This document shows, in pieces, positions 3,174-10,831 of a stretch of 28,735 nt of DNA. The notes below the pieces were generated by a model. That model saw nothing but the letters and a program-made list of their open reading frames with translations, ran no database searches and was not told the origin of the DNA. Source of the stretch: a virus; the IMG/VR virus record IMGVR_UViG_3300000313_000011, positions 1 to 28,735 of that record; one strand, 5' to 3'. Position numbers and translations under genes: made by a program. The number at the start of each line of letters is the position of its first letter. Position 1 is the first letter of the stretch.

Positions 3174-4196
3174 ATGGAAAAAGATATAATAAAATCAGAG
3201 GAAAACATGAGCGAAAGATTTACAGCAGCGGTATTAAAAGAATTTAGCGGAAGTTCGGGAGATATACAAGTTACTGGATACCAACGCAATTTAGTACAAG
3301 GCTATTTTATTTCAATAGATCGTATGCTTTTGGATTTAGAAGCAGGAAGAATACGCAAAAATGCATTTAATAAAGACCACAGCTATGACAACAAGATTCC
3401 TTATACTTGGGCAAGCATAAATATGCCATCATTAGCAAGAGATGTAATGTGCTATAGCAAACTTGGTCTTGACATGCTGGCAGATAATCATTTATTTGCT
3501 ATTCCTTACAAAAACAGCAAGACAAATAAATATGATCTTGGATTTATCAAAGGCTATAACGGTATAAAAATGCTAGTTGAAAAATATGCAATGGATATTC
3601 CAAAGGCATCAACGATTGAAGTTGTATATAGCAATGATACATTTAAGCCGATGAAAAAAAGCTTTAATACACCAGTTGAAACATATCAATTTGAAGTTAC
3701 AAATCCGTTTGATCGCGGTGATATAATCGGCGGATTTGGATATCTTGAGTATGAAGATCCGGCGAAGAACAAATTATATGTTATGACAATGAAAGAAATT
3801 GAAAAAAGAAAACCGAAAAATGCTGCCGTTGAATTCTGGGGAGGAACTAAAAAAGATTATTCCAGCAAGCAAGACGTTGAAGTCGAAGGATGGAAAGATG
3901 AAATGGTTTATAAATCATTGGTTCGTCATGTGTTCGGCAGATTACCGTTAGATCCTGCAAAAATTGGCGAAGCTTATCGGATAACACAGCAGCGTGAAGC
4001 TGATTACAAAGATATGGAAGTAACAGACGAAATTGCTACACAGGCTAATAAAGATCCTATCAATGTAACACCAGACGAAAAACCTAAAGAACAGGAACTT
4101 AATCCGGCACAGCCTATTATAAAACCGCCAATAGACAATACAATTAAAGAAGAAAAAGTCGCAGAAAAAGTTTCTATTACTGGGCCAGAGTTTTAA
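3174..4196 (+). CDS. recT: RecT-family single-strand annealing recombinase
   Basis: A 340-residue protein whose core (about 25-285) matches RecT: conserved stretches include YQRNLVQGYFISIDRML, LGLDMLADNHLFAIPY, GFIKGYNGIKML and the late VYKSLVRHVFGRLPLDP. RecT binds ssDNA and anneals complementary strands after resection by a partner exonuclease. The C-terminal 60 residues are a Pro/Lys/Glu-rich disordered tail. The ATG at 3174 follows GGGAGGG; an alternative start is the internal MSER. Its stop overlaps the next start (TAATG), so the recombinase and the MBL nuclease are translationally coupled, which supports a shared pathway. Confidence 0.9.
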   Translation: MEKDIIKSEENMSERFTAAVLKEFSGSSGDIQVTGYQRNLVQGYFISIDRMLLDLEAGRIRKNAFNKDHSYDNKIPYTWASINMPSLARDVMCYSKLGLDMLADNHLFAIPYKNSKTNKYDLGFIKGYNGIKMLVEKYAMDIPKASTIEVVYSNDTFKPMKKSFNTPVETYQFEVTNPFDRGDIIGGFGYLEYEDPAKNKLYVMTMKEIEKRKPKNAAVEFWGGTKKDYSSKQDVEVEGWKDEMVYKSLVRHVFGRLPLDPAKIGEAYRITQQREADYKDMEVTDEIATQANKDPINVTPDEKPKEQELNPAQPIIKPPIDNTIKEEKVAEKVSITGPEF

Positions 4197-4906
4197 TGAT
4201 TAATATAAAGGTACTAGCTTCAAGCAGTTCGGGAAATTGTTATCATATTGATGATGGTGAAACGTCTTTGCTGCTTGAAGCCGGAATACCTATAAAAAAA
4301 ATACAGAAAGCTACAGGATATACGGTTACAAAAGTTTCCGGATGTCTTGTAACTCATGAGCATAAAGATCATTCAAAGGCGGTGAGTGATTTAATGCATA
4401 TTGGAATAAACTGTTATATGAGCAGCGGAACGGCTTCAGGTATTGAAGCAAATGGAAACAGATGCAAAATAATAAAAGCAGGAGAAATTTTTATTATAGG
4501 ATCATGGAAAATAAAAGCTTTTGATACAAAACATGATTGTGCTGAACCACTTGGATATTTTATGTTAAGCCAGAATACTGGCGAAAGATTAGTTTTTATT
4601 ACAGACACTTACTACGTTAGATATAGATTCGAAAAGATGAACTACATTATGGTTGAGTGCAATTACGCGGATGATATTATTCGAAAAAATGTTACAGATG
4701 GAATCATTGCTGACAGCATGAGAAAGCGAATACTTCGATCACATTTAAGTCTTGATAATTGCAAGGAGTTACTTAGGGCGAATGATCTAAGCAAAGTAAA
4801 GGAAATATATCTCCTACATCTTTCGGACAACAACAGTGATGAAATACGCTTTAAAAAAGAAATAGAATCGCTGACAGGAATACCAACATATATAGCAGCG
4901 AAATGA
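4196..4906 (+). CDS. metallo-beta-lactamase-fold nuclease, RecT partner
   Basis: A 236-residue protein with the MBL hydrolase signature THEHKDH (H54, H56, D58, H59). Later candidate metal ligands are FDTKHD, FITDT and SHLSLDN. The N-terminus LASSSSGNCYHID resembles the YycJ/WalJ-type exonuclease branch. In Firmicute phages an MBL-fold protein commonly sits directly after recT and is thought to supply exonuclease activity in place of RecE or lambda Exo. Here it overlaps recT by one base, which fits that role. No C-terminal CPSF-type extension is present. The nuclease role is inferred from family and position. Confidence 0.85.
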   Translation: MINIKVLASSSSGNCYHIDDGETSLLLEAGIPIKKIQKATGYTVTKVSGCLVTHEHKDHSKAVSDLMHIGINCYMSSGTASGIEANGNRCKIIKAGEIFIIGSWKIKAFDTKHDCAEPLGYFMLSQNTGERLVFITDTYYVRYRFEKMNYIMVECNYADDIIRKNVTDGIIADSMRKRILRSHLSLDNCKELLRANDLSKVKEIYLLHLSDNNSDEIRFKKEIESLTGIPTYIAAK

Positions 4907-10339: not shown

Positions 10340-10430
10340 AAACCGCCAAAAGGCAGAACATAAAGCAAAACGGAAACGACGTAAGCAGGGCGATACATTG
10401 GCTAAAATTATTAGGAGGAATGACTTATAA
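10317..10430 (+). CDS. 37-residue basic peptide upstream of ssb
   Basis: A short, very basic ORF (KNRQKAEHKAKRKRRKQG) overlapping the previous gene. An in-frame second ATG at 10332 could be the true start. Its stop TAA (10428-10430) overlaps the proposed AUA start of ssb as ATAA, and the ssb ribosome binding site is inside it, so it may serve to couple translation. Confidence 0.45.
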   Translation: MKIKTMIKNRQKAEHKAKRKRRKQGDTLAKIIRRNDL

Positions 10431-10831
10431 ATAGCATAATTATTTCAGGAAGATTGGTGCGAGACGTAGAGGTGCGCTATACTCAAAGTGGTAAAGCGGT
10501 GGCGAGCTTTACACTTGCCGTAAACAAACGGTTTAAACGAGAGGGAGAACAGCAAGCTGACTTCGTTCCAGTGGTAGCGTGGGATAAGCTAGCAGAAATA
10601 TGCGGACAGTATCTTGCAAAAGGATATCAAGCAATTGTCGAAGGAAGATTGCAAATAAGATCATATGATGCTCAAGACGGAACTAAAAAATATGTGACAG
10701 AAGTTATTGCAAACAATGTTGAATTTGTTGGCAGCAAAAAAGTGGCAACGGAAGAAGAAACGCAGGCTAATAATGGATCAGCAGAAAATACTTTTGGGAA
10801 AACTGTTCCAGATGAAGATATACCTTTTTAA
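10427..10831 (+). CDS. ssb: single-stranded DNA-binding protein, probable AUA start
   Basis: An SSB with an OB fold: NSIIISGRLVRDVEVRYTQS, then AVASFTLAVNKRF, FVPVVAWDKLAEICGQYLAKG and VEGRLQIRSYDAQDG, ending in the conserved acidic tail DEDIPF that recruits partner proteins. It coats ssDNA in replication and recombination with RecT. In its frame a TGA lies at 10421-10423 and the first usual start is TTG at 10454, which would remove the first beta strand. AGGAGG (10413-10418) is 8 bases before ATA at 10427, giving I-NSIIISGRL, matching the family's usual MN-start. I therefore place the start at AUA (134 residues). Confidence 0.9.
   Translation: MNSIIISGRLVRDVEVRYTQSGKAVASFTLAVNKRFKREGEQQADFVPVVAWDKLAEICGQYLAKGYQAIVEGRLQIRSYDAQDGTKKYVTEVIANNVEFVGSKKVATEEETQANNGSAENTFGKTVPDEDIPF

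Follow-up and report, generated by a model that had tools for sequence, protein, structure and literature searches.

The question raised by this locus is where an SSB gene starts whose reading frame offers no canonical start codon ahead of its first OB-fold strand. The window, i.e., the whole stretch of DNA that was analysed, is a 28,735-base IMG/VR virus record. It encodes SbcC-like and RecT-like proteins in a region for phage replication and recombination, terminase and portal in a head region, and no phage tRNA. Read directly from 10421, the SSB frame runs TGA, CTT, ATA (10427-10429), AAT AGC ATA ATT ATT TCA GGA AGA and TTG (10454). That is, no ATG, GTG or TTG stands between the TGA and the TTG, and AGGAGG lies 8 nt ahead of the ATA, both as stated by the original prediction, which had proposed the ATA as an AUA start. 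We find this to be the best-supported reading but an incomplete one. With a probability of roughly 0.72, the SSB starts at this AUA within a conserved module, in which an AUU, AUC or AUA codon (AUH) is overlapped by a mini-ORF that opens at an out-of-frame AUG. The respective features are collected in Table 1.

Table 1. Features around the SSB start in the window (positions of the whole stretch).
Feature	Position	Strand	Remark
Upstream small basic ORF; its TAA (10428-10430) overlaps the ATA as ATAA	10296..10430	+	sequence
Shine-Dalgarno (SD) AGGAGG	10413..10418	+	8 nt (10419-10426) before ATA 10427; 1 nt before the out-of-frame ATG 10420
Start module GGAGG-N-ATG-RCN-TAY-H-AAY, here GGAGGAATGACTTATAAAT	10414..10432	+	kept in relatives
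Out-of-frame mini-ORF ATG ACT TAT AAA TAG (M-T-Y-K-stop), overlaps the SSB start	10420..10434	+	sequence
In-frame TGA closing the SSB frame upstream	10421..10423	+	sequence
Proposed AUA initiation codon of SSB	10427..10429	+	same position as the ATG of L007 and L323
SSB coding sequence, 134 residues	10427..10831	+	PF00436, PHROG 44, C-terminal DEDIPF tip
TTG, first canonical in-frame start, rejected as SSB start	10454..10456	+	canonical codon there in 9/40 relatives

The product of the ATA-started frame has both the full OB-fold profile match and the acidic C-terminal tip (DEDIPF) of an SSB. PF00436 matches at 1e-35 over profile positions 1-104, starting at residue 1 and profile position 1; PHROG 44 (8e-54) and solved SSB structures are likewise aligned from residue 1. 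Codons 1-10 make up the first OB-fold strand. The original prediction had argued that a start at the TTG would remove this strand and had suggested an alignment of the N-terminus with phage SSBs; the Pfam and structure alignments from residue 1 agree with its argument.

It had also suggested looking for ATG at this position in relatives. A protein search in IMG/VR yielded 56 SSB loci, and in most of them the codon at the position of the ATA is indeed ATG. A near-identical leader, AGGAGGAATGACTTATH-AAY, comes with ATA in the window, with ATC in L014 and L052, and with ATT in L028 and L030. When IMG/VR was scanned for exact matches to GGAGGAATGACTTATNAAY, 19 loci came up: 17 SSB genes, the loader-like locus L076 and an unrelated gene that starts at an ordinary ATG. 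All 17 SSB genes (17/17) carry a base other than G at the third position of the start codon. With a looser pattern, the set grew to a total of 40 non-identical phage or prophage SSB genes that share the consensus GGAGG-N-AUG-RCN-UAY-H-AAY.

Within these 40 genes, the start codon is AUC in 23, AUU in 14 and AUA in one (the window), with one AUG and one ACG; its first base is A in 40/40, its second T in 39/40 and its third C (23), T (14), G (2) or A (1), followed by AAY. Upstream, GGAGG at -13 to -9 is nearly invariant, base -8 is free (A in 29/40), and AUG occupies -7 to -5 in 40/40. Base -4 is a purine (A 38, G 2), -3 is C in 40/40, -2 is free again (T 27, A 10, C 2, G 1), and -1 is U in 40/40. 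The spacing from GGAGG is 8 nt to the AUH and 1 nt to the AUG, with L149 (10 and 3 nt) as the sole exception. From codon 2 onward, variation follows a period of three in the SSB frame. Since the proteins average only about 44% identity (after thinning to 85% identity), the conservation of the upstream DNA is better explained by selection than by recent gene copying. The ATAA junction of the original prediction, i.e., the upstream TAA overlapping the ATA, exists in the window but is not kept, as the upstream stops of relatives are placed differently. The ATG at 10420-10422, which is invariant across module SSBs, was absent from that prediction.

We also scanned with patterns that leave the spacer free. 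Fixing GGAGG, a gap of 4-13 nt, ATH and the SSB N-terminus gave at least 25 SSBs without an in-frame canonical upstream start. Among the 25 matches listed, 23 carry ATGACNT and one ATGGCAT directly 5' of the ATH, while one (L230) has neither. Fixing GGAGGNATG followed by seven free bases recovered the module again, together with three canonical-start members, namely L323 (ATGACGT-ATG), L325 (ATGGAAT-TTG) and L324 (ATGAAGA-ATG). Given both free-base scans, phage SSBs of this kind that start at AUH almost always have the upstream AUG as well. Two SSBs lack the AUGRCNU spacer as well as a nearby in-frame canonical upstream start, i.e., L230 around 4187-4202 with AUC (AGGAGGAACAAAAAATCAAC) and L009 at 3001 with a possible AUA start (AAGGTAACCACCATAAATAAG).

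Searching the genome collection with the tight pattern gave 30 matches. Only two of these matches precede an SSB, in Gallibacter intestinalis (L087) and Blautia sp. An249 (L094), both with ATC; before non-SSB genes, the respective base is G and the start ordinary. We rejected the idea that the module is a trait of host lineages, given two SSB matches of the exact pattern in a collection of 85,000 species and two SSB matches in about 690 genomes (one class and one family). Short blastn queries did not reveal a cultured phage with the module, and the matches opened had ordinary ATG starts.

For the homologous start position, a pair of closely related phages is decisive. L007 and L014 are about 97% identical apart from a patch right at the SSB start (16 vs. 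19 nt), with flanks identical in 180/187 positions upstream and 335/340 downstream. Here, GGAGGA-CACC-ATG-AAC-AAA-GTA in L007 (2990-3012) corresponds to GGAGGA-ATGACTT-ATC-AAC-CGC-ATT in L014 (2950-2976). Since the ATG of L007 aligns with the ATC of L014, the AUH marks the position of the ortholog's AUG. Furthermore, L323 has the module with ATG at the AUH codon, and L325, the sister of the module member L149, has TTG there. We also placed the module on an SSB tree built from 147 sequences, which has few columns and rough support. Counting well-supported branches, at least 5 changes are required, and parsimony asks for 15, so that the module was probably gained and lost repeatedly. The route was probably the replacement of a 16-19 nt patch, to judge from the sequences of L007 and L014.

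Taken as an initiation site, AGGAGG at 8 nt would place the initiator tRNA on the AUA. We take the AUH as the start because of the SD spacing, the L007/L014 pair, L323 and L325, and because AUU and AUA starts are known from infC and from Staphylococcus aureus. In the module SSBs, no canonical in-frame start precedes the AUH, which lies at SD distance, and no alternative start codon is conserved. One observation speaks against it: in L313, which lies at the edge of a Clostridia contig, ACG takes the place of the AUH, and M-T-Y is kept. The AUH codon would hold SSB initiation low and may let it respond to IF3, initiator tRNA or growth state, as infC, pcnB and ccpN suggest. That dozens of related gut phages have the module points to a conserved throttling or timing of SSB.

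infC, the gene of IF3, has an AUU or AUA start and is autoregulated by IF3. infC of the Lachnospiraceae, to which the Blautia carrier belongs, has AUU behind GGAGG wherever the leader is readable. We observed this AUU start in L327-L349 (e.g., GGAGGTGCACAACTATTAGC); an in-frame ATG frequently follows 4 codons downstream, and gene finders may pick it instead. infC and the SSB module are alike in that an AUH stands behind a strong GGAGG at 8-9 nt with no canonical start directly upstream; infC differs in having GGAGGUG and no AUGRCNU spacer. Mimicry of the host infC leader was discarded accordingly, as AUU and GGAGG are shared and the spacer is not. The link of the SSB start to IF3, made by the original prediction, is plausible by analogy to infC and the published AUU/AUA genes; an effect of IF3 on SSB would be cross-regulation rather than autoregulation, since SSB is a phage replication protein.

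In S. aureus, AUA starts (infC, ccpN, citZ) and an AUU start (cvfC1) were verified experimentally, and three AUU/AUA sites tested by reporter reached about 10-30% of the AUG level (PMC13009471). The S. aureus and Bacillus subtilis cases ccpN (AUA), cvfC1 (AUU) and citZ (AUA), verified there by ribosome profiling and reporters, share AUU/AUA initiation in Firmicutes with the SSB module. They rely on an extended start-proximal SD (PMC13009471), whereas the module has no contiguous extended pairing, with A at -8 in 29/40 and then the AUG, and has a conserved out-of-frame AUG instead. For Escherichia coli pcnB, the AUU start limits translation; as far as it is cited in PMC13009471, this is a single chromosomal case without a module, unlike SSB.

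A simple weak AUH start does not account for the out-of-frame AUG, since it has no need for AUGRCNU. For the same reason, the AUA start alone is an incomplete interpretation: the position given by the original prediction is right and its kind probably so, while the actual find, judged from the sequences, is the module. The invariant AUG 7 nt upstream might be read as a mini-ORF of 3-5 codons (M-T-Y) that overlaps the SSB start. Such a mini-ORF could compete with initiation at the AUH, or feed the AUH by termination and re-initiation.

Variation within the mini-frame AUG-ACN-UAY falls mainly on wobble positions (n=40). In addition, the start base is associated with the wobble base of the following Asn codon, i.e., C occurs with AAT and T with AAC, such that the mini-frame stops at codon 4 or 5 in 32/40 genes; the early stop is missing in the other 8/40. 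After thinning at 85%, early stops are found in 24/32 genes compared to 20.2 expected with the start base shuffled (P 0.004), while under harder thinning (70% identity) the association only reaches a Fisher P of 0.05. The stops and the wobble variation are hints that the mini-frame is translated.

Competition by the mini-ORF or re-initiation from it onto the AUH is favoured over both a non-coding role of the spacer and a +1 frameshift. In overlapping mini-ORFs and leader peptides with re-initiation, a short AUG frame likewise ends at or across the main start; the SSB module is unlike them in that its AUG is 1 nt behind the SD and its main start is non-AUG. The stronger proposal of a new device, i.e., an M-T-Y mini-ORF 1 nt behind the SD that is coupled to SSB by non-AUG re-initiation 7 nt downstream or by a ribosome slip, is put forward tentatively, with chances below even. 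If true, initiation or termination factors would affect how much SSB the phage makes.

The alternative that survives best, although we consider it rather unlikely, is a plain weak AUH start with an AUGRCNU spacer kept for a non-coding reason, e.g., to bind a protein or antisense RNA as an operator, to pair further with 16S rRNA, or to serve as a patch of homology for swapping SSB start regions. L007 and L014 look as if a short patch had been exchanged at the SSB start, the changes on the tree (at least 5 on starred branches or 15 by parsimony) fit repeated exchange, and AUH without the spacer occurs in L230. A recombination patch alone, however, neither fixes and frees specific bases nor bars AUG at the start. 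Additional pairing of the kind found at the S. aureus AUU/AUA sites (PMC13009471) is absent, since base -8 is A in 29/40. We saw no shared RNA structure that accounts for the module, and no neighbouring gene family that could act as a regulator is present in most module loci.

We regard it as improbable that the ribosome instead initiates at AUG 10420, reads ACU and UAU, skips A 10429 and resumes at AAU in a programmed +1 frameshift (M-T-Y-N-S-I-I-I), with GGAGG as stimulator as in prfB (RF2). Such a shift would account for the bases left free in the module, i.e., the wobble positions of AUG-ACN-UAY and one additional base, and for L313 (ATG-ACC-TAC-G-AAC), which loses the AUH and keeps M-T-Y; some other SSBs also start with Y-N. 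The AUG is, however, 1 nt from GGAGG, which is too close for ordinary initiation. SSBs with a normal SD-to-AUG spacing were not found, the respective matches being ordinary M-T-Y-K/Q genes and L149 having 3 nt; nor was an in-frame M-T-Y-N SSB with a GGAGG site found in IMG/VR. Orthologs begin at the AUH position instead. A TAC variant as proof of the shift was sought as well, with none among the IMG/VR SSBs and L313, from a bacterial genome, as the single outlier.

Like prfB, the module has an SD-like element before a short frame, and the stop that often comes next is, if UAA, usually followed by C, as in prfB (PMC12421855). The shift-site codon is UAA in 14/40 genes, with C next in 12/14, while most of the remaining genes have CAA, a sense codon and the commonest one at this site. 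prfB has the slippery codon CTTT, whereas the module has UAU-H, i.e., no slippery codon, and tRNA-Tyr presumably cannot re-pair from UAU to AUH. The spacing differs too: the SD lies 3 nt before the P codon in prfB (PMC12421855), compared to 7 nt to UAU or 4 nt to ACN here. Unlike prfB, the SSB module has no in-frame relatives and its stop is not universal.

A sequencing error (real base G, i.e., ATG 10427) or a dead gene is very improbable: the window is the only AUA case and one mutation from AUG, but 37 other non-identical SSB genes carry AUC or AUU behind the same leader, and the remainder of the SSB is intact with its acidic tip. A start at TTG 10454 is the least credible option; it is the first canonical in-frame start, but it would cost nine OB-fold residues that are alignable with solved SSBs, the codon is not conserved, and no SD stands immediately ahead.

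To our knowledge, very few genes have a conserved AUU, AUC or AUA start, and most of those described are single, tightly controlled genes of hosts. Our literature search found no paper that links SSB or phages to such starts and no description of the module. Since the module is reused in dozens of divergent SSBs, and present or absent between close relatives, it would provide a clean natural test system for non-AUG start choice and also for why a phage would want a throttled SSB. Gene finders restricted to ATG, GTG and TTG would misplace or miss such SSB starts.

Outside SSB genes, the module was observed in two further contexts. In L112 (4351 on) and L123 (4674 on), GGAGGAATGACCTATTAAC precedes an ORF with a ParB_N domain, with AUU behind the module; this start may be chance because an in-frame ATG follows 5 codons in. 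On the reverse strand of L076 (5400-5418, GGAGGAATGACTTATCAAT), an IstB/DnaC-like, helicase-loader-like ORF with a cysteine-rich N-terminus and no canonical start ahead of the Cys cluster opens at an AUC behind the module.
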